From: Geothrix sp. 21YS21S-2
GTDB lineage: Bacteria > Acidobacteriota > Holophagae > Holophagales > Holophagaceae
Assembly (NCBI RefSeq): GCF_030846775.1
Contig: NZ_CP132910.1
Span: 4,653,001 to 4,717,000, forward strand
DNA length: 64,000 bases
Reading direction: 5' to 3'
Of this stretch, positions 6,225-18,382 are shown piece by piece (position 1 is the stretch's first letter; each line of letters starts with the position of its first letter). The notes beneath the pieces are model-generated. The model saw only the letters and a list, made by a program, of their open reading frames with translations. It was not told the DNA's origin and did not search any database. Position numbers and translations under genes: made by a program.

Positions 6225-7079
6225 ATGACCGCTCTCCCCACCAATCAGCAGATGAGCGTCCAGGACTTCCTGGCGATCCGGGAGTTCATCTACGCCAAGA
6301 CGGGAATCTTCTTCAACGAATCCAAGCAGTATTTCCTGGAGAACCGGCTGAACCGGCGGATCCAGGAACTGAACATGAGCAGCCACCGGGACTACCTGGG
6401 GCACCTGCAGGGGCACGCCGGCCGGGAGGAGCTCAAGCAGCTCTTCAACGAGATCACCACCAACGAGACCAGCTTCTGGCGGAACCCCCCCCAGATCGAG
6501 GCCTTCCAGAAGATCGTCCTGCCCGACGCGGTGTCGCTGGCCAAGGCGCGCGGGGCCAACCGGCTCCGGCTCTGGTCCGCGGCCTGCTCCTCGGGGGAAG
6601 AGCCTTACACCCTGGCCATGATCTGCGCCGAGGCCAGGGACACGCTCCTGCGGGGCATGCAGGTGGAGATCGTCGCCACGGACATCTCCGAGAAGGTGCT
6701 GGCCATGGCCCGGGAGGGGAACTACGGCAGCTACACCCTGCGCAACCTCACGCCCGTCCAGATCAAGCAGCACTTCAACCAGCAGGGGCCGGACAGCTTC
6801 CTCGTCAAGCCCGAGCTCCAGCAGCTCATCAGCTTCCGGAACTTCAACCTGGTGGACTACGCCAACTACAAGAGCCTGGGCTCGTTCGACATCATCTTCT
6901 GCCGGAACGTCCTCATCTACTTCGACGAGGCGGTCAAGGGCAAGGTGATCAAGGGGTTCCACGAGGTCCTGCAGCCCAAGTCTTTTCTCCTTGTGGGGCA
7001 CAGCGAATCCATCCACTCTTTCAACGTCGGCTTCGAGCTGCTTCACTTCAGCAAGGCCATGGGCTACCGGAAGCGCTGA
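6225..7079 (+). CDS. cheR: Chemotaxis protein methyltransferase CheR
   Basis: A 284-residue CheR. The N-terminal all-alpha domain (residues about 10-80) has FIYAKTGIFF and ENRLNRRI. The SAM-binding Rossmann domain follows, with NETSFWRNP, LWSAACSSGEEPYTLAM (SAM loop), ATDISEKVLAMAR and IIFCRNVLIYFDE. It methylates glutamates on chemoreceptors, opposing CheB encoded downstream. The gene starts a same-strand block (cheR-HDOD-HDOD-cheB-fliK-like) with gaps of 18, 2, 5 and 5 nt, so a common transcript is likely. No CheA, CheW or receptor gene lies in the window. Confidence 0.95.
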   Translation: MTALPTNQQMSVQDFLAIREFIYAKTGIFFNESKQYFLENRLNRRIQELNMSSHRDYLGHLQGHAGREELKQLFNEITTNETSFWRNPPQIEAFQKIVLPDAVSLAKARGANRLRLWSAACSSGEEPYTLAMICAEARDTLLRGMQVEIVATDISEKVLAMAREGNYGSYTLRNLTPVQIKQHFNQQGPDSFLVKPELQQLISFRNFNLVDYANYKSLGSFDIIFCRNVLIYFDEAVKGKVIKGFHEVLQPKSFLLVGHSESIHSFNVGFELLHFSKAMGYRKR

Positions 7080-7097: not shown

Positions 7098-7946
7098 ATG
7101 CCCATCACACCCCAGGAACTGATCTCGAACCTCGGCGACCTGCCCCCGCTTCCGCAGGTGGCGGCCCAGGTTCTTCGCCTGGCCGCGGATCCGGATTCAA
7201 CCACGGATGAGCTCCGGCGGGTCATCTCCTCCGACGTGGCCCTCACGACGCAGATCCTGAAGATCGCCAACTCCGCCATGTTCGGCATGGTGCGCGAGGT
7301 CAAGACCCTCACCCAGGCGATCATGACCCTGGGATTTTCCACCATCAAGAGCGTCGTCATCGCCTCCAGCGCCAAGAACCTCTACAGCCGCGGGGGCACG
7401 GGCCTCCAGGAGCGGGTGCTGTGGGAGCACGCGCTGGTCACGGCCCTCTCGGGACGCGCCTACGCCAAGGCCTTCCGGAGCCCCCGGGTGGAGGAGGTCT
7501 TCCTGGGCGGGCTCATGCACGACATCGGCAAGTCCGTCATGGGCATCAAGTTCACCGACCGCTACTCCGCGCTCGTGCGGAGCATCTACAACGGCGAGGC
7601 GGACTGCCTGGAATCCGAGCTCGACCTCTTCGGCTTCGACCACACCATGGTGGGCGAGGCCCTCCTGATCTCCTGGAACCTGCCCGCGAGCATGGTGCAC
7701 GCGGTGCGCTGGCACCACGATCCCGGCCATGCGCCGGCCGAGGACCAGGCCCTCACGGCCTTCGTCGCCCTGGGCAACCAGATGGCCCTGGACCGCAAGG
7801 TCGGCCTCGGACGCCCCGAATCCCTCGCCCGCAGCACCCGTCAGGCCGTCGAACTCCTGGGCATCGCCCCCGAGGACCTGGAGGGCTACCAGCTGCAGGT
7901 CGTGGAGGCCCTCGAGACCGACAAGAACCTCATCCGGGACTTCTGA
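7098..7946 (+). CDS. HDOD-domain signalling protein (copy 1)
   Basis: A 282-residue protein made almost entirely of one HDOD domain (about residues 12-210), with LPPLPQVAAQVLRLA, ISSDVALTTQILKIANSA and LGGLMHDIGKSVMG. The HD-like dyad is retained, but HDOD proteins generally lack the phosphodiesterase signature and are thought to act as signalling scaffolds. GGAGGG precedes the ATG. It lies between cheR and cheB and is followed after 2 nt by a second HDOD protein of identical length, so the pair probably arose by duplication. A role in motility or c-di-GMP signalling is inferred from context only. Confidence 0.88.
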   Translation: MPITPQELISNLGDLPPLPQVAAQVLRLAADPDSTTDELRRVISSDVALTTQILKIANSAMFGMVREVKTLTQAIMTLGFSTIKSVVIASSAKNLYSRGGTGLQERVLWEHALVTALSGRAYAKAFRSPRVEEVFLGGLMHDIGKSVMGIKFTDRYSALVRSIYNGEADCLESELDLFGFDHTMVGEALLISWNLPASMVHAVRWHHDPGHAPAEDQALTAFVALGNQMALDRKVGLGRPESLARSTRQAVELLGIAPEDLEGYQLQVVEALETDKNLIRDF

Positions 7947-7948
7947 CC

Positions 7949-8797
7949 ATGATCACTTCCGAGCTCGTCCGCACGAGGGTGAGAACCCTCCCCAGCCTCC
8001 CCACCACGGTGGTGTCGCTGGGCCAGGCGGTCGCGGACGACCGGTGCAGCGTGGACCGGATCCTGAACATCCTGGCCAAGGACCCGGCCCTGTCGGCCAC
8101 CATGCTGCGCCTGGCCAACTCGGTCATGTACGCCGGCGACCAGCGGGTCATGGACCTGCGCACCGCCGTGATGCGCCTGGGCTTCGAGGCCCTGCTGAAC
8201 CTGGGCCGCACCGCCGCCATCATCCGCAGCTTCCGGGGCTCCAACCACATGGACCCCTTCCGGCTCTGGCAGCACTCCGTGGCGGTGGGCCTGGTGTCCA
8301 AGGGCATCTGCCGGCTCATCAAGATGAACCACATGGACGAGTCCGCCTACCTCGCGGGCCTCCTGCACGACATCGGCAAGATCGCCCTGGACCGCTGCTT
8401 CACTGAGGAATACGGCCCCGTGGTCCTGGCCATCGAGCGCGGCGACGCCTGCCTCGACGCGGAGTTCGGCAACCTGGGCATCACCCACGCCGAGGTGGGG
8501 GCCATGGTCGCCGAGCACTGGAGCTTCCCCGCGCCCATGGTCACCGCCATCCGCGACCACCACCAGGACCACCCGAAGGAGTTCCTTCCCGCGCTGGTGC
8601 AGATCGCCGATCTCCTGGTGCGCACCCGCATCCCCAACGGTCCCGCCGACGAGACCTTGATGTTCGCCCTGGAGGAGCAGCCCGCCTACCCCGTGGTCTT
8701 CGGCGGCGGGGACTTCGACGCCGAGCGCCTCACCTTCAGCATCGACGACGAGCTCGAGCACGCCGTCACCTTCGTGAAACTAGCCTTCCAGGATTGA
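7949..8797 (+). CDS. HDOD-domain signalling protein (copy 2)
   Basis: A 282-residue HDOD protein (LPSLPTTVVSLGQAV, LAKDPALSATMLRLANSV, LAGLLHDIGKIALD) with the same layout as the preceding gene but clearly diverged. The C-terminal third (DLLVRTRIPNG onward) differs most between copies and may bind different partners. The ATG at 7949 follows the previous stop by two bases. Equal length and adjacency suggest duplication followed by specialisation. It may form heteromers with copy 1, which is inference. The downstream cheB ATG is 5 nt away. Confidence 0.88.
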   Translation: MITSELVRTRVRTLPSLPTTVVSLGQAVADDRCSVDRILNILAKDPALSATMLRLANSVMYAGDQRVMDLRTAVMRLGFEALLNLGRTAAIIRSFRGSNHMDPFRLWQHSVAVGLVSKGICRLIKMNHMDESAYLAGLLHDIGKIALDRCFTEEYGPVVLAIERGDACLDAEFGNLGITHAEVGAMVAEHWSFPAPMVTAIRDHHQDHPKEFLPALVQIADLLVRTRIPNGPADETLMFALEEQPAYPVVFGGGDFDAERLTFSIDDELEHAVTFVKLAFQD

Positions 8798-8802
8798 ATG
8801 CC

Positions 8803-9897
8803 ATGGACCCCATCCGCGTCCTGATCGTGGACGACAGCCCCTTCATGCGGAAGGCCCTCGAGCGCATGCTCCAGGCGCCCGACATCGCCGTGGTGGGCTC
8901 GGCCCGGGACGGCCTGGACGCCCTGGAGAAGATCCCCCAGCTCAACCCCGACATCGTCACCCTGGACGTGGAGATGCCCCGCCTGGACGGCCTGGGCTGC
9001 CTCAAGCGGATCATGGCGGAGATGCCGCGGGCCGTGCTCATGGTCTCCAGCCTCACCCAGGAGGGCGCCGCCGCCACCCTGGACGCCCTGGCCTTCGGCG
9101 CCCTGGACTTCATCCCCAAGGAGAGCAGCCTCGCCAGCTCCAGCATCCTCCAGATCCAGCAGGACCTGCAGGAGAAGGTGCGCAAGCTCGCCCGGAGCCC
9201 CCGCTTCCAGAAGGCCCGGCCCGCCGCCCCCGCCCCGCGCCCCGGCTTCCCCGCGCTCCAGGCCCCTCCCGCCCCCGCGGCCCCTCCCGCCCATGTGGGC
9301 CGGGTGGGCGCGCTCGGCGGCCCGATGGCGGAGCTCCTGGCCATCGGGTGCTCCACCGGAGGGCCCAAAGCCCTCCAGGACCTGCTGCCCGGCATCCCCA
9401 GGACGCTCCCCGTCCCCTGCCTCATCGTCCAGCACATGCCCGGCACCTTCACCAAGGCCTTCGCCGAGCGCCTCAACGGCCTGTGCCAGGTGGAGGTCAA
9501 GGAGGCCGAGCACGGCGAGACGGCGCGCCCCGGCGTGGTGTACATCGCCCCCGGCGGCCACCACATGCTCTACCGCCAGCGCGGCCTGGGCGGCTCCATC
9601 GAGCTGAGCGCCGAGCCCGCCTCCAGCCTCCACCGCCCCAGCGTGGACGTCCTCTTCCAGAGCATCGCCGACCAGTGCTCCCGCCAGGTGCTCGCCATGA
9701 TCCTCACCGGCATGGGCAGCGACGGCGCCCGGGGCATGGTGTCCCTCAAGGCCAAGGGCGCCCACACCCTGGCCGAGGCCGAGGAGTCCTGCGTGGTCTA
9801 CGGCATGCCCCGGGCCGCCTTCGAGAAGGGCTGCGTGGACCAGGTGGCTCCCCTCCAGGACATGGCCGGGATCCTGCGCAGGCATTTCCAGATCTAG
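8803..9897 (+). CDS. cheB: Chemotaxis response regulator protein-glutamate methylesterase CheB
   Basis: A 364-residue CheB. The receiver domain (1-125) has the acidic pair Asp10/Asp11 and the phospho-acceptor Asp55 (VTLDVEMP). An Ala/Pro-rich linker (about 130-170) leads to the methylesterase domain with Ser184 (IGCSTGGP), His211 (VQHMPGTF) and Asp307 (GMGSDGA), the classic triad. It demethylates or deamidates receptor glutamates when phosphorylated by CheA. The ATG at 8803 is preferred over a TTG nine bases upstream that overlaps the previous stop. The linker is longer and more Pro/Ala-rich than in enteric CheB. Confidence 0.94.
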   Translation: MDPIRVLIVDDSPFMRKALERMLQAPDIAVVGSARDGLDALEKIPQLNPDIVTLDVEMPRLDGLGCLKRIMAEMPRAVLMVSSLTQEGAAATLDALAFGALDFIPKESSLASSSILQIQQDLQEKVRKLARSPRFQKARPAAPAPRPGFPALQAPPAPAAPPAHVGRVGALGGPMAELLAIGCSTGGPKALQDLLPGIPRTLPVPCLIVQHMPGTFTKAFAERLNGLCQVEVKEAEHGETARPGVVYIAPGGHHMLYRQRGLGGSIELSAEPASSLHRPSVDVLFQSIADQCSRQVLAMILTGMGSDGARGMVSLKAKGAHTLAEAEESCVVYGMPRAAFEKGCVDQVAPLQDMAGILRRHFQI

Positions 9898-9902
9898 CGA
9901 CC

Positions 9903-11894
9903 ATGGACCCCGTCCAGACCGCCGTCACCGCCTTCCTGAACGCCGTCCAGGCGGCACAGCCCCTGCCGGAGCTCCCGGCGGCCCCGCAGGCGGTCCTCAA
10001 CGCCCTCCTGGGCCAGGACGTGAACCTGCGGTTCCAGGGACAGACCGCCGCAGGCCTCCAGTTCACGCTGCCGTCCGGCCAGATCCTCACCGCCCAGGGC
10101 GACTTCCCCTACCCCGAGGGCACTCAGCTCCTGGTGCGGGTCGCGGCCTCCGACGGCGGCACCATCCGGCTCCAGACCCTCCAGGCCCTGCCCCCCTCCC
10201 CCCCCGCCATCCTGGCCCCCCTGCTCCAGGGCGAGGCCCAGCTCCTCCAGAACCGCCTCACCCAGCCCGCCCCGCCCCCGGAGCTGGAGCCCCTGGTGCA
10301 GCTCTTCCGCCTCCTGGGCGGCGCCCTGCCCGCCGAGACGGGCCCGCAGCCTTCCGCAAACGCGTCAGGGCAGGCTCCAAACCAGGCGACCGCGCAAGGA
10401 ACAGGGCAATCCGCTCAGCAAACAAGCGGCCAACCTGCGCCGACCCCAGGAACCGCATCGGAATTGCCGTCCGGAGCGCAGCCGGGGGGACAGCCTGGAG
10501 CCCAACCGGCGGGACCCTCAGGCACCCAGCTGGGGACCCAGCCACCGGGGCCACTGGGGGTTCAGCCGGGAGCGCAACCGCCAGGACAGCTTGCGGGGCA
10601 ACCGGCAGGGCAGGGGGAAGGACAACCTGCAGGACAACCAACAAAGCAAGCAATCGAGCAACCGATCGCACCTTCGACGACCCTGGCACCCAATCAGCCA
10701 GCTCCTCAGCCAGCCACCCAAGCAACCACCCAAGGAACCACCCAAGGGACCACCCAAGGGACCACCCAAGCAACCACCCAAGCAACCACCCAAGGGACCA
10801 CCCAAGCAACCACCCAAGGGACCACCCCAGGAACCACCCAAGCAACCACCCAAGGGACCACTCAAACAACCACTCAAGCAACCACACAAGCGACCGGTTC
10901 ACTCCCGACCAACCCACCGGTATCTCAACCGGCCAACCCAACCGACCTCCCACCCGGGACCCAGACCCCAGGTCAGCCTGCTGGATCCACAGAAGCCCAA
11001 CCCTTCCTTTCACCTACGCAGACGGCTGACCAGCCTTCCGGCCTCCCTTCCCTCGAACAGGCATCCCAGGGCTCCGGATCCCTGGGGCTGACCCGGCCGG
11101 CTGAAGGCCTGGCCCATTCCGGAAGCCCCGCGCCGCCGTCCCAGGCGGTGGAGGATCTCATCGCCCTGGTGCAGGCCAGGCTGCCCGGCTCCCAGGAGGC
11201 GCTCCGGGCGGTCCTCAGGGACCTGCCCGAACCGCAGGCCCTGGCCCTGCGGGCCCTGCTGCGGGGCGGCGCCCCGGATCCCGCGGTGGTCCAGGAGGCC
11301 TCGGTCCGGGTGCAGACGGCCCTGGCGCGCAGGGCGGATGCGCCCCAGGGGCAGGCCGACGCGGTCTCCCAGCTGCTGCGCGGGCTGGTGCGGGCCCAGG
11401 CGTCCACGGCCGCCCTGCCCGGGGCGCCGGAGACCTGGGAATCCTGGATCAAGGCGGGAGTGAAGGCCCTTTCCGACCCGGGCGTCTCGCCCCGGGAGGC
11501 GCCGTTCCACGCGGCCCAGGCCAAGGAGGGGACCGCCTTCTACGAGCTGCCGCTGCCGTGGGCGCCCCAGGCCCCGCTGCAGATGTGGGTGGAGTCGGAC
11601 GCCGGGGGCAAGGGCCGCGGGAATCCGGAAGGCGCCACCACCCGGGTGCTCCTGGGCCTGAACTTCACCCGGCTCGGGGAGACCCGGCTGGGCATCGCCA
11701 AGGGGGCCGGAGGGCTCCAGGTCCGGGTCTGGGCACAGCACCCCGAGGCGCTCCTGGCCGCCCAGGCCGGAATGGAGGACGAGCTCAAGGCCCTGGGCGT
11801 GCCGGTGGACCTGCGGATCCAGGGGCTGGAGCCGGGGCCCGTGCCCAGCATCCGGAGCCTCACGGGGGGCGCCGGCTTCCAGGTCCTGGGGTGA
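9903..11894 (+). CDS. FliK-like flagellar hook-length control protein with Thr/Gln repeat linker
   Basis: A 663-residue protein starting 5 nt after cheB. Residues 1-140 form a compact N-terminal region. Residues 145-390 are a disordered Gln/Pro/Thr/Ala/Gly-rich linker, including 15 tandem tetrapeptides of the TTQ(A/G) type (271-330). The C-terminal 100 residues resemble the FliK hook domain, with LGLNFTRLGETRLGIA, a following amphipathic helix and LRIQGLEPG. FliK acts as a secreted molecular ruler, so a long unstructured linker fits. The flagellar assignment rests on the weak C-terminal similarity and the chemotaxis context. Another possibility is an unrelated proline-rich secreted protein. 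Confidence 0.62.
   Translation: MDPVQTAVTAFLNAVQAAQPLPELPAAPQAVLNALLGQDVNLRFQGQTAAGLQFTLPSGQILTAQGDFPYPEGTQLLVRVAASDGGTIRLQTLQALPPSPPAILAPLLQGEAQLLQNRLTQPAPPPELEPLVQLFRLLGGALPAETGPQPSANASGQAPNQATAQGTGQSAQQTSGQPAPTPGTASELPSGAQPGGQPGAQPAGPSGTQLGTQPPGPLGVQPGAQPPGQLAGQPAGQGEGQPAGQPTKQAIEQPIAPSTTLAPNQPAPQPATQATTQGTTQGTTQGTTQATTQATTQGTTQATTQGTTPGTTQATTQGTTQTTTQATTQATGSLPTNPPVSQPANPTDLPPGTQTPGQPAGSTEAQPFLSPTQTADQPSGLPSLEQASQGSGSLGLTRPAEGLAHSGSPAPPSQAVEDLIALVQARLPGSQEALRAVLRDLPEPQALALRALLRGGAPDPAVVQEASVRVQTALARRADAPQGQADAVSQLLRGLVRAQASTAALPGAPETWESWIKAGVKALSDPGVSPREAPFHAAQAKEGTAFYELPLPWAPQAPLQMWVESDAGGKGRGNPEGATTRVLLGLNFTRLGETRLGIAKGAGGLQVRVWAQHPEALLAAQAGMEDELKALGVPVDLRIQGLEPGPVPSIRSLTGGAGFQVLG
10713..10892 (+). 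repeat. In-frame 12-bp minisatellite (15 units) in the FliK-like gene
   Basis: Fifteen consecutive 12-nt units of the form ACC-ACC-CAA-GSA encode ATQA, then TTQG/TTQA, with one TTPG and one TTQT unit. Units are nearly identical at the DNA level, including the otherwise rare CAA and GGA/GCA codons. The array is therefore young or homogenised and prone to copy-number change by slippage or recombination in steps of four residues. The surrounding linker uses the same codons with decayed periodicity. Confidence 0.92.
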
Positions 11895-14218: not shown

Positions 14219-14242
14219 TATGTAACTTATCGGATATTGAAG

Positions 14243-15940
14243 ATGAGCAAGGGACGTCCCCTCCCCGGAGTCTGTGCCCCCGGCCTGACCCGCCGCCGCT
14301 TCCTCGGCGCCGCCGGCGCCCTGGCCTTCGGGCCCGCCCTCCTGCACGGCCGGGATGGCGGTCCCGTTCCCGCGGCGCTGCCCGTGTCCGCGCGCCGCGA
14401 GTCCTTCCTCAACTGGAGCGGAGAGATCCGGGTGCCCGACGCCTGGACCGCCGCGCCCCGCACGCCCCAGGAGGTGGCCGGGCTCGCGGACTGGGCCCTG
14501 GACCGCGGGTGGCGCCTGCGGGCCCGGGGCATGGGCCACGGCTGGTCCCCGCTCCTGGCGTCCTCGGGGCGGCCCCTGCCTCCGGCCCTGCTGGTGGACC
14601 TCACGGCCCACCTGGACCAGGTGCGGGTGGAGGGGTCCACCCTCACGGCCCAGGCCGGCGCGAGCCTGGACCGCCTGTGGGAGGCGGCCGGCGCGGCGGG
14701 GCTCGCCGTGGCCTCCACGCCCGCGCCGGGGAACCTGACCCTGGGGGGCGCCCTGGCCATCGGGGCCCACGGCTCCGTGCTACCGGGGCCGCCGGTGCAG
14801 GGCTGGACCTGGGGCTCGCTCAGCAACGCGGTGCTCGCCCTGGAGGCGGTGGTCTGGGATCCGGGGACGGGGCGGCACGTGGTGCGGACCTTCGGGCGGG
14901 CGGATTCGGAAATAGGCCCCCTCCTGGTGCACATGGGCCGGGCCCTGGTCACCTCCGCCACGCTCCAGCTGGGCGCGGACGTGAACCTGCGGTGCCTGAG
15001 CACCACGGACGTCCCCGCCTCCGAGCTCTACGCCCCCCCGGCCCTGGCGGGGCCCCGGAGCTTCCAGGCCCTGGCCATGGGCTCGGGGCGGGTGGAGGCC
15101 ACCTGGTTCCCCTTCACGGAGTGTCCCTGGGTGCGGGTGTGGTCCGCCGAACCGGAGCGGCCCGCGGGTTCGGTGGCCCATGACGGGCCCTATCCCTACA
15201 CCTTCGCCAATTGGGTCGGCCGGGACGACTCGGACGCCGCCGCCGCGTGGCTCCGGGAGTCGCCTTCCCGCACCCCGGCCTTCCTGGGCCTGGAGCGCGC
15301 CCTCGCCCATGCCGGGCTGGACCTCACCGGCACCCGGGACGTGTGGGGTCCCTCCCGGTTCACCACGCTGCACGTCAAGCCCTCCACGCTGCGCTACCAC
15401 GTGAGCGGCCACGCCATCCTGTGCCGCAGGGCGGACCTCCAGCGGGTGGCCAGCGAGTTCCACCGGGCCGTGGAGGATCTGCTGGAGGCCGCCCGGGCCC
15501 GCGGCGCCTTCCCGGTGAACGGCCCCGTGGACCTGCGCGCCACGGGCCTGGACCACGCGGCTCCGGGCCAGGCCGAGGCCCTGCTGTCCCCCATCCGCCC
15601 CCGCCCGGACCATCCGGAGTGGGACTGCGCGGTGTGGGCGGAGGTGCTGACCCTGCCCGGCACGCCCGGAGCCATGCCGTTCTACACGGACCTGGAGGCG
15701 TGGATGCTGGGCAACTACACGGGGGACTACGCCGCGGTGCGGGTGGAGTGGGCCAAGGGCTGGGCCTATTCCCCCGCGGGCCCCTGGACCGGGCCCGGGA
15801 TGCTGGAGGGGCACATCCCGCGGGGGTTCACGGAGGGCTACGGGAGGGGCTGGCGCGAGGCCCTGGAGGGCCTGCGAGCCCTGGACCCGGCGGGGATCTT
15901 CGGCAGCCCCTTCCTGGACCGGCTCACGAAAGCGCGATGA
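14243..15940 (+). CDS. Tat-exported FAD-linked oxidase, cholesterol-oxidase (type II)-like
   Basis: A 565-residue protein beginning with a twin-arginine signal (LTRRRFLGAAGALAFG, about residues 14-30). It is followed by a VAO-type FAD-binding domain: ARGMGHGWSPLL near residue 95, whose His is a candidate for covalent FAD attachment, and NLTLGGALAIGAHGS. The C-terminal half resembles the substrate-binding domain of type II (vanillyl-alcohol-oxidase fold) cholesterol oxidases, e.g. TFANWVGRDDSD and RATGLDHA. A sterol or other bulky alcohol oxidised in the periplasm is plausible but not proven, and a related sugar or polyol oxidase is possible. The ATG at 14243 lacks a good ribosome-binding site. 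Its 3' end overlaps the convergent BrkB-like gene by 17 nt. Confidence 0.72.
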   Translation: MSKGRPLPGVCAPGLTRRRFLGAAGALAFGPALLHGRDGGPVPAALPVSARRESFLNWSGEIRVPDAWTAAPRTPQEVAGLADWALDRGWRLRARGMGHGWSPLLASSGRPLPPALLVDLTAHLDQVRVEGSTLTAQAGASLDRLWEAAGAAGLAVASTPAPGNLTLGGALAIGAHGSVLPGPPVQGWTWGSLSNAVLALEAVVWDPGTGRHVVRTFGRADSEIGPLLVHMGRALVTSATLQLGADVNLRCLSTTDVPASELYAPPALAGPRSFQALAMGSGRVEATWFPFTECPWVRVWSAEPERPAGSVAHDGPYPYTFANWVGRDDSDAAAAWLRESPSRTPAFLGLERALAHAGLDLTGTRDVWGPSRFTTLHVKPSTLRYHVSGHAILCRRADLQRVASEFHRAVEDLLEAARARGAFPVNGPVDLRATGLDHAAPGQAEALLSPIRPRPDHPEWDCAVWAEVLTLPGTPGAMPFYTDLEAWMLGNYTGDYAAVRVEWAKGWAYSPAGPWTGPGMLEGHIPRGFTEGYGRGWREALEGLRALDPAGIFGSPFLDRLTKAR

Positions 15941-17171
15941 CGTCCATGGGGGTCGGGGCCTCCGCGGACTTCTCGCTGGTCGCGCGAAGACGCGAGGCCA
16001 TGCCCACCAGCATCACCCGCACCGTGTCCGGGAACTCCCGCAGGAGCTGGGCGAAGTTGCGGGCGTGGATCACCACGCACTGGCAGGGGCCTTCCGCCAC
16101 GGCGGTGGCGGAGCGGTCCAGGCCCAGCAGGAAGGTCATCTCGCCCAGGAAGCTGCCGGGGCCGATGCGGGCGATCTCCCGGTCCCCCTTGAGGATCCGC
16201 ACGGTGCCCGCGAGCAGGTAGAACATCTCCACGCCGGGCTCGCCCTCCCGGAAGAAGACGTGGCCGTCCGGGGCCTCCAGGAGCAGGTGCCGATGGCCGG
16301 GGTAGCCGCGGCGGGCCTTGCCCTCCATCAGGCGCTTGATGGCCACCGCGTCGCCGCGGTGGCAGGCCGCGGCCACCTCCACCCCCAGGAGGAGCATCGC
16401 CATGGACACGTAGATCCAGATCACGATGAGGAACAGGGACTTGAACGAGCCGAAGGCCACGCCGTAGCTCTGGTCGAGGGTGAGGAACCAGGTGAAGGCG
16501 GGGCGCAGCAGGAACCACAGGACCGTGGTGGTCAGGGCCCCCGCCAGCAGGTGGCCCCGGCTGGCGTCCCGCGGGGCGTACACCGCCATCAGGCCCGTCA
16601 CCAGGGCCGTGCTCACCGTGAAGGGCAGGGCGAGGCCCAGGGACACGCCCCGGGAGCCCAGGAGGGAGGCGTTGAGGAAGTGCAGGAAGACGCCCGCCCC
16701 CGCCAGGGCGGCCAGGGCCGTGAGGGACGCGACGCCCCCGGCCAGGTCCAGCAGCTTGACCAGCCACAGCGAGCGCGTCTCCCGCTCCTTGAAGATGCCC
16801 CGGACGATTTCGCGCAGGGCCGAGACCAGGGGCGACACGGACCAGGCCAGCACCAGGAGGTTGAGGAGACCGGCCGTGCCGGGGTGGCGCGTGAGGGCGG
16901 CCACGTCCTCCAGCACCCGGTCGGCCTGGCCCGGCAGCATGCGGGCCAGGTAGTCCGTGAGCCGCTGGTGGGCGGCTGCCGAACTGCCGGTGATCAGGCC
17001 CAGGATGTAGGTGAGCAGGAGCAGGGCGGGGATGAGGGCCAGCAGCGTGTAGAAGGCGAGGCTGGAGGCCTGCCGGAGGCCCCCGTTGGCCTGGAACCCC
17101 GCCAGGGCTTCCAGCGCCGTCTCCCAGGCGTGGTGGGCCAGGTCCGCGGGTCGGGGCCGGCGCTCCCCCAT
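15924..17171 (-). CDS. YihY/BrkB-family membrane protein fused to a cyclic-nucleotide-binding domain
   Basis: A 415-residue protein. Residues about 15-270 form the YihY/UPF0761 domain: six hydrophobic segments with QASSLAFYTLLALIPALLLL, GTAGLLNLLVLAWSVSPLVSALR, TTTVLWFLLRPAFTWFL and SFKSLFLIVIWIYVSMAMLLLG. Residues about 295-400 form a CRP-type cNMP-binding jelly roll (FFREGEPGVEMFYLLAGTV, IGPGSFLGEMTFLLGLDRSATAVA). The PGSFLGEM-x-LLG.DRSATA stretch matches the phosphate-binding cassette. The membrane part's substrate is unknown in the family, and the cytosolic domain suggests gating by a cyclic nucleotide. It follows the lipoprotein gene after 8 nt. The start at 17171 is supported by GAGG upstream. 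Confidence 0.85.
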   Translation of the reverse strand: MGERRPRPADLAHHAWETALEALAGFQANGGLRQASSLAFYTLLALIPALLLLTYILGLITGSSAAAHQRLTDYLARMLPGQADRVLEDVAALTRHPGTAGLLNLLVLAWSVSPLVSALREIVRGIFKERETRSLWLVKLLDLAGGVASLTALAALAGAGVFLHFLNASLLGSRGVSLGLALPFTVSTALVTGLMAVYAPRDASRGHLLAGALTTTVLWFLLRPAFTWFLTLDQSYGVAFGSFKSLFLIVIWIYVSMAMLLLGVEVAAACHRGDAVAIKRLMEGKARRGYPGHRHLLLEAPDGHVFFREGEPGVEMFYLLAGTVRILKGDREIARIGPGSFLGEMTFLLGLDRSATAVAEGPCQCVVIHARNFAQLLREFPDTVRVMLVGMASRLRATSEKSAEAPTPMDVIALS

Positions 17172-17179
17172 GGGTGGCC

Positions 17180-17770
17180 TCAATCCGTTCCCACGGTGAC
17201 CGTGGCCCGCGCCGAGGCCGACGGGTCCGCCGCGGAGGTGGCGGTGACGTGGTAGACCCCGGGCCTGCGCGGGGCCGTGTACCGGCCGTCCGCGGTGATC
17301 TCGCCGCCTTCGGCCTCGTCCACGGTCCACACCGCGGCGTCCCGGGGCAGGCCGCGCATGCGGACCCGGAAGGCGATGGAGGAGCCCGGCGGGATGCGCG
17401 GCGAATGGGGTTCCAGGACGGGGCTGGGCAGCACCCGCACCTCGAGGGTCTGCTTGTGGCCGGGGGTGCGCAGCACCAGGTGGTAGGTCCCGGCCGCCTC
17501 GGGCGGAACATAGGTGACGCGCGGACCCTGGCTGTTGAGAAGGCCGCCCCCGTACATCTCCTGCACCTCCCACTCCGGGTCCGCCGCAGCGTCGCCCGGG
17601 GTGCGGGCGGAGAGCACGAGGGTCTCGCCCACCATCACGGCGGGGGCCTCGGGTTCGACCACCAGCTGCCTGGGATCCCGGCCTCCCCCGCAGGCGGCCA
17701 GCAGGGCCACGGCGGCGATAAGCACTCCTTTTCCCACTGACGTTGCGGCTTCTTGCATCGGTTCGATCAT
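17180..17770 (-). CDS. Lipoprotein with Ig-like (Big_2-type) repeats
   Basis: A 196-residue protein with a lipoprotein signal (VLIAAVALLAAC, lipobox Cys about residue 27). Two beta-rich segments follow (about 38-110 and 115-193). The second ends in GGEITADGRYTAP..PGVYHVTATSAADPSASA, a pattern typical of bacterial Ig-like domains. It is probably a periplasmic or outer-membrane-anchored adhesive or structural lipoprotein, with no enzymatic motif. A Met at residue 5 is an alternative start. It is co-directional with the BrkB-cNMP gene and probably in one operon. Positions 17771-17866 form the divergent control region toward the rhodanese gene. Confidence 0.75.
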   Translation of the reverse strand: MIEPMQEAATSVGKGVLIAAVALLAACGGGRDPRQLVVEPEAPAVMVGETLVLSARTPGDAAADPEWEVQEMYGGGLLNSQGPRVTYVPPEAAGTYHLVLRTPGHKQTLEVRVLPSPVLEPHSPRIPPGSSIAFRVRMRGLPRDAAVWTVDEAEGGEITADGRYTAPRRPGVYHVTATSAADPSASARATVTVGTD

Positions 17771-17780
17771 CCCACAGGTT

Positions 17781-17786
17781 TATAAT
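17781..17786 (+). promoter_or_regulatory. Consensus -10 hexamer upstream of the rhodanese-MoxR operon
   Basis: A perfect TATAAT at 17781-17786 on the plus strand lies 80 nt before the rhodanese ATG. It stands out in GC-rich DNA. No good -35 is found at the usual spacing (TTGCAT lies 22 nt upstream), so the promoter may depend on an activator. Confidence 0.45.
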
Positions 17787-17866
17787 GGCCTGGATCCCGC
17801 CCTTGGATGGCTCTTCGAGATCACGGTACCTCCAGGGTAGGCAGAAACCAGCACCGGAGGCGAACC

Positions 17867-18382
17867 ATGTTTGATCCCCAAGCCCTGCTCCCGGCACTGA
17901 AGCCAGCGCTCCTGGCCGGGCCGGGGGCCGCGGGAGACTGGCTTTCCCGCCCGGAGGCCATCTATCCCCTGGCAGGCGCGTTCCTGGCGCTGCTGGTGGT
18001 TGTCGTTCTTAAGTGGTCTGATTTCACTAGTTGGAAGCGGGCCCGCCACAAGGAGGTCTTCCGGCCCATCGATCTGGAACAGGTGCTGCACGGCCAGCCG
18101 CCCGTCGTGGTGGACCTGCGGAGGCCCGACGATTTCAACGGGCCCCGGGGGCACATCCGGGGCGCCTACAACCTCCCCGTCAACCACCTGGTGTGGGGTC
18201 TGGCGGACATCGCCAAGGACAAGCGCCAGCTGGTGGTCCTGGTGGACTACGACGACCGGGTCTCCCACGTGGCGGCAGCCGACCTCCAGGCCAACGGCTA
18301 CAGTTGGGTGCGGGTCCTCCGGGGCGGCATGCGGGCCTGGCTGAAAGCGAACCTGCCGGTGTCCGTGAGCGGGCCCCGCTGA
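17867..18382 (+). CDS. Membrane-anchored rhodanese-like protein lacking the catalytic cysteine
   Basis: A 171-residue protein with GGAGG before its ATG. A transmembrane segment (about residues 33-50) precedes a rhodanese fold (about 66-160: PPVVVDLRRPDDFNGPRGHI, GAYNLPV, LRGGMRAWL). At the active-site loop, where rhodaneses have Cys-x5-Arg, the sequence reads VVLVDYDDRVS. The protein contains no cysteine at all, so sulfurtransferase chemistry is impossible. It is probably a binding or structural module. The DUF58 gene follows after 19 nt, placing it at the head of the MoxR-DUF58-transglutaminase operon. Confidence 0.82.
   Translation: MFDPQALLPALKPALLAGPGAAGDWLSRPEAIYPLAGAFLALLVVVVLKWSDFTSWKRARHKEVFRPIDLEQVLHGQPPVVVDLRRPDDFNGPRGHIRGAYNLPVNHLVWGLADIAKDKRQLVVLVDYDDRVSHVAAADLQANGYSWVRVLRGGMRAWLKANLPVSVSGPR

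Follow-up and report, generated by a model that had tools for sequence, protein, structure and literature searches.

The gene directly downstream of cheB in the analysed stretch of DNA (the window, 64,000 nucleotides from Geothrix sp. 21YS21S-2), named FliK2 here, very probably encodes a second FliK-like flagellar protein and not the hook-length ruler, because a canonical FliK is encoded elsewhere in the same genome and because orthologues without the linker occur among its relatives. The initial annotation had placed a 12-bp minisatellite of this gene in a linker that would determine hook length if the protein is FliK. Reading FliK2 as a non-ruler takes away what looked like an attractive, though probably mistaken, model system for the evolution of hook length. 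It also presents the linker as a compact natural example of what may be the birth and decay of a minisatellite inside a disordered protein segment.

Gene context and the 12-bp array of FliK2

The start codon of FliK2 was located 5 bases past the stop codon of cheB. The neighboring genes and the parts of FliK2 are as follows.

6225..7079, + strand: cheR (PF01739 and PF03705)
7098..7946, + strand: HDOD gene (PF08668)
7949..8797, + strand: second HDOD-like gene (similarity to the first HDOD gene; syntenic in relatives)
8794..9897, + strand: cheB (PF01339 and PF00072)
9903..11894, + strand: FliK2, FliK-like gene of 663 aa (open reading frame and translation)
10008..10196, + strand: N-terminal beta-barrel, OB-like, aa 36-98 (AlphaFold2 model)
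10338..11126, + strand: predicted disordered linker, aa 146-408 (pLDDT <50 in AlphaFold2; lag-12 periodicity)
10713..10892, + strand: minisatellite of 15 units x 12 bp, TTQ(A/G), in frame with the gene 9903-11894
11142..11408, + strand: helical segment, aa 414-502 (AlphaFold2), inside the region missing from linkerless orthologues
11415..11891, + strand: conserved C-domain, aa 505-663 (alignment of 22 orthologues; mixed alpha/beta in AlphaFold2)

The gene order cheR-HDOD-HDOD-cheB-FliK2 was retained in 21 of 24 orthologue loci, the contig ending first in the other three, and an acpS match was found upstream of cheR in 16 of these loci. Comparison of the window with the congeners G002 and G005 by the NG86 method gave dN/dS values of 0.18-0.31 for both the N and C domains, which indicates that selection keeps the FliK2 protein; the YN00 method returned 0.034, a value from one of four comparisons only. 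The best VIA-align rows for the N-terminal barrel were EF-P and eIF5A, with a middling score (Z 6.1-6.3 over 55-57 residues). Two further genes of the window may be recorded here: a cholesterol-oxidase-type FAD enzyme (14237-15940; PF09129 at 327 bits, plus PF01565), present in this member of the Holophagaceae, and a fusion of a BrkB-family membrane domain with a cyclic-nucleotide-binding domain (15927-17897, - strand; PF03631 and PF00027).

Tandem Repeats Finder called the array at 10714-10895 with a period of 12, 15.2 copies and 86% matches, and called it also with a period of 36 and 5.0 copies. Twelve of the 15 units translated as TTQA or TTQG, the remaining three being ATQA, TTPG and TTQT. 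Eight distinct units were present, with altered units at the edges and a mean pairwise identity of 0.85, and the longest exact repeat within the array was 34 bp. The 180 bp of the linker that matched best at a lag of 12 did so at 145 of 168 positions; when the codon order of this linker was shuffled 1000 times, the count never exceeded 84. CAA encodes all 14 Gln residues of the array, whereas outside the array it accounts for 13 of 32 Gln codons within the linker (codons 146-400) and for none of the 36 found elsewhere in the gene. The GC content was 0.61 in the array and 0.75-0.77 at the two gene ends. The sole match to the array elsewhere in the own genome was 27 bp long (E 0.24). When the linker upstream of the array was taken alone, periodicity at lags of 12, 24, 36 and 48 persisted, which points to 12-bp expansion having gone on over a longer time, with the array as its most recent product. 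What the initial annotation had said of the repeat itself was thus largely upheld: the fifteen units at 10713-10892 are exactly placed, in frame and far above the codon-shuffle null, the near-identical codons are seen in the uniform Gln codons, the decayed flanking copies are recognizable on the upstream side as the residual periodicity, and adding or removing entire units would change the protein in steps of four residues without breaking the frame.

The C-domain and the canonical FliK of the same genome

FliK2 scored below the cut-off of the Pfam family Flg_hook (PF02120), with 21.2 bits as a protein and 24.6 bits in the genome search against a cut-off of 29.8, and the sub-threshold match covered aa 576-635. 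Flg_hook was matched at E 0.1 or better by 16 of 26 orthologues, the best value being 1.5e-5, and the best NCBIfam match of the window protein had an E value of 0.25. Alignment of the FliK2 C-domain with the C-domain of canonical FliK by hhalign gave E 7.9e-6 and a probability of 83.8. A search of PDB sequences with the C-domain profile returned 9 rows, led by uS3 (E 0.14), with no PscP, FliK or other T3S4 protein among them, and the relation of FliK2 to T3S4 proteins is therefore a remote one.

Structural comparison was made with the window protein and with a linkerless orthologue from Geothrix limicola (L079), which had no Pfam match at E 0.1 and whose model reached a mean pLDDT of 74.5. The first-ranked Foldseek match of the L079 model was 5cuk, the substrate-switch domain of PscP (E 3.9e-3, probability 1.00), and VIA aligned the two with a Z score of 8.0 over 71 residues, the next row scoring 6.0. 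For the window model, 5cuk ranked second in Foldseek (E 0.018, probability 1.00), with a Z score of 5.5 that was tied with unrelated rows. No Foldseek match of either model had an E value of 0.001 or better. Foldseek and VIA together provide moderate evidence for a T3S4-type fold of the C-domain, with the fold alignment in FliK2 spanning aa 561-642. The designation of the protein as FliK-like in the initial annotation accordingly received support on two sides, from the T3S4-type fold and from the profile match to the FliK C-domain. The FliK core motif, PE-x-LG, has P19, E20 and G23 invariant in the canonical FliK alignment. This core was not found in FliK2, where the corresponding position carries an FxxLGE-type sequence that aligns with the G of the motif and not with its PE.

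The own genome consists of one contig of 5.25 Mb, and its only over-cut-off Flg_hook match was found at 5121951-5122184, about 457 kb from FliK2. This canonical FliK scored 66.3 bits in the genome search and 62.1 bits as a protein, and matched no NCBIfam family at E 0.001. Its gene is followed downstream by flgD and flgE and preceded upstream by fliF, fliG, fliH, fliI and fliJ on the same strand, these names being taken from Pfam and NCBIfam matches. FliK2 in turn follows cheB and is not located with the hook genes flgD and flgE. The canonical FliK C-domain was confirmed in 16 of 16 relatives fetched, loci that had been picked because a Flg_hook match was already found there, and the length of the protein ranged from 465 to 797 aa over the 16 genomes.

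Repeats were observed in this region as well. The canonical fliK carries a small array of 18 bp x 4.3 (L064:8843-8920). Directly upstream of it, a KGG stress-repeat protein (PF10685) with a tandem array of 54 bp x 6.7 is encoded (L064:9632-10096; G000:C1 about 5123.6-5124.1 kb). This gene is situated between the canonical fliK and a coiled-coil-like gene after fliJ, and is an unexpected member of a flagellar operon.

Distribution of FliK2 and variation of its linker

The presence of the FliK2 C-domain, searched by profile, was compared with that of the FlhB family (PF01312) in 77 genomes of the family. The former was found in 55 and the latter in 57 genomes: 53 had both, two had only the FliK2 C-domain, four had only the FlhB-family match and 18 had neither. 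FliK2 therefore tracks flagella (53 of 57 genomes with an FlhB-family match vs 2 of 20 without), and nothing was found to contradict the flagellar nature of the protein assumed in the initial annotation. Both genomes with only the FliK2 C-domain are partial assemblies (G078 and G093, 58% and 71% complete). Those with only the FlhB-family match were G006, G011, G029 and G031, and a FliK2 N-domain was found in G006 and G031; the PF01312 match of G007 and G031 was to an FhlB-type tail only. A matching CheB was not found in 11 FlhB-less genomes of the family, the best hit (E 4.5e-20) covering part of the protein, compared with 70% identity across almost the full length for the cheB match of G008. 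Because no comparable cheB match was seen in these 11 genomes, the module as a whole appears to accompany motility. Across a draw of 247 genomes from the phylum, 14 matched the C-domain profile, of which 13 belonged to the family and one, G100, lay outside it (E 2.3e-5).

Linker length, taken between the positions equivalent to 145 and 500, was determined in two samples that overlap in species. The first comprised 25 copies (the window and 24 loci), and 19 single-frame two-domain copies, the window included, were kept after L040, L041, L042, L047, L061 and L063 were dropped. Their linkers ranged from -10 to +635 residues. Five genomes in this sample were linkerless; all five belonged to one genus and had a full-length FlhB. 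The second sample comprised 38 loci, from which L066, L067 and L072 were dropped as not having both domains in one frame; 27 of the 35 two-domain loci kept had no linker and eight had linkers of 114-617 residues, with L078, L088 and L100 incomplete at the N side and the C-domain only partly matched in L102 and L103. The region equivalent to aa 145-500 is missing from the linkerless orthologues. Judged from these copies, the linker is dispensable and ranges from none to about 635 residues. In G005 (L040), the frame break was traced to a 108-base N run inside the linker and was set aside. In G002 (L041; G002:C1:3703000-3716000, a single contig), FliK2 was found in two frames with no N. The break, which could be either a sequencing error or a genuine frameshift, falls in a part of the linker that is rich in C and has C homopolymers up to 7 bases long.

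The coefficient of variation of length was 0.35 for FliK2 vs 0.15 for canonical FliK, and the two lengths were not correlated (Spearman 0.28, p 0.30, 16 genomes), in a comparison that used approximate starts and non-independent species and omitted G002 with its two-frame FliK2. Since canonical FliK varies in length as well, such variation is not in itself enough to exclude a ruler.

Strong arrays were detected by Tandem Repeats Finder, with periods up to 100 only, in 2 of the 19 copies: that of the window and that of the congener G001, which has a different unit (30 bp x10). Only weak repeats were found in G002 and G005, the best being 24 bp in 2-3.5 copies or G+C-rich units, and in a DNA alignment of these two with the window the C-terminal part aligned well and the linker did not. 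A two-unit array pattern gave three matches in 149 fetched loci, all covering the window's own gene, with the linkers of G003 (contig end) and G005 (N run) not fully readable for the array; no stretch of the viral contigs exactly matched a longer array pattern. Because the array was unseen in the relatives fetched and G001 has a different 30-bp array, the linker, as far as its sequence tells, turns over between species. The term hypervariable used in the initial annotation consequently stands for the comparison between species only, since the comparison covered one genome per species. The linkers of L048 and L050 appear by eye to consist of about three and two tandem copies, respectively, of a segment of ~100-130 residues, a pattern of segment duplication rather than of a minisatellite.

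Possible role of FliK2 and comparison with known systems

A candidate partner of FliK2 is FhlB, a free paralogue of the FlhB tail (PF01312 positions 258-334), which is encoded in the own genome at G000:C1:330037, unlinked to FliK2 at 4662903. FhlB was found in 53 of the 77 family genomes, 50 of them with the FliK2 C-domain, a co-occurrence that is confounded with having a flagellum. A FliK-like gene was located directly beside FhlB in three contigs, from G100, G057 and G003 (C240, possibly a contaminant), and the FliK2 C-domain profile matched the encoded proteins with E values of 2.9e-7 for G100, 5.9e-5 for G003:C240 and 0.0028 for G057; for the latter, hhalign against the FliK2 C-domain gave E 7e-4 and a probability of 26.6. 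This adjacency thus held in three of six other genomes examined, the two genes being apart in G042, G044 and G050, where the profile also matched proteins not adjacent to FhlB (E 0.0034, 1.9e-6 and 9.6e-5, respectively). YlqG-YlqH of B. subtilis is a pair of this kind, a FliK-like protein encoded beside FhlB, and a pylori protein is reportedly a known FhlB. No description of FliK2 was found in a limited literature collection searched for FliK repeats, FhlB, YlqG/YlqH and Geothrix/Mesoterricola flagella, and if FliK2 acts on FhlB, a testable role would be given to a pair on which little literature was found.

A hook-length ruler, or a second ruler whose array copy number tunes hook length, would fit the FliK-like C-domain and the predicted disordered in-frame linker. 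In Salmonella, the FliK C-domain binds FlhB and thereby switches export, changes of ruler or linker length alter hook length, and a 60-residue linker of FliK influences the binding of FlhB as well as the length of the hook (PMC6972891, PMC13344023). A role as hook ruler is nevertheless judged highly unlikely, given that this genome has a canonical fliK adjoining flgD and flgE and that flagellated relatives carry linkerless orthologues. The absence of a length correlation with canonical FliK can be added to this; the proposal of the initial annotation that the linker sets hook length was given up on these grounds. The array could also be a contingency (phase-variation-like) locus selected for rapid change of copy number, as its 34-bp internal exact repeat and the different arrays of the window and G001 might suggest. 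This is considered very unlikely for units that have diverged in sequence, with altered units at the edges, and in a gene that would not be switched off by whole-unit changes, which stay in frame.

The position behind the cheR-HDOD-HDOD-cheB genes, seen in 21 of 24 loci with the remaining three contigs ending first, and the failure to find a matching CheB in the 11 FlhB-less relatives would be in keeping with a protein of chemotaxis or gene regulation rather than export, its T3S4-like C-domain being a relic. However, the C-domain is well conserved and similar proteins adjoin FhlB in three contigs, which makes such a role improbable. We consider it probable instead that FliK2 is a second, non-ruler T3S4-type protein that perhaps acts on FlhB or FhlB and has a weakly constrained linker. 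Under the preferred non-ruler reading, FliK2 would be made up of an OB-like N-domain, a linker and a C-terminal T3S4-type domain, and the last of these may act on an FlhB-type cytoplasmic tail, of either FlhB or FhlB, adjusting export without measuring length. Its nearest analogue would be Xanthomonas HpaC, which is a T3S4 protein with a tail of this type as its binding partner and is not known to act as a ruler. Because its length appears to matter little, the linker would behave as a weakly constrained disordered spacer, in which short in-frame repeats could appear, multiply through slippage or unequal exchange, and later degenerate; the most recent such expansion in this lineage would be the TTQ(A/G) array. 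The FliK-like protein of the flagellated Holophagaceae keeps a switch-type domain, and many of its copies lack a linker or ruler segment. A bolder and more doubtful proposal, offered tentatively, is that flagellated Holophagaceae possess a second, length-independent export switch, in which an OB-plus-T3S4 FliK2 cognate to FhlB is encoded with the chemotaxis methylation genes and has a linker free to be deleted, rebuilt by segment duplication or filled with minisatellites.

Among known systems, bacterial coding minisatellites (VNTRs) have the in-frame 12-bp tandem array in common with FliK2. FliK shares a related C-domain as seen by profile, a T3S4-like fold and a disordered linker, whereas FliK2 falls below the Pfam cut-off, has no PE-x-LG core, lies outside the flagellar operon, coexists with an over-cut-off FliK and has no linker in many relatives. 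The FhlB-adjacent FliK-like proteins resemble FliK2 by profile, as in G100, but the FhlB of the own genome is unlinked to FliK2. The T3S4 substrate-switch proteins PscP, YscP and HpaC have the fold of the switch domain in common with FliK2 (5cuk), which differs from them in its flagellar context, its OB-like N-domain and its place after cheB. HpaC of Xanthomonas has been described as likely being a T3S4 protein of the cytoplasm, with the tail of an FlhB-family member as its binding partner (PMC3040844).
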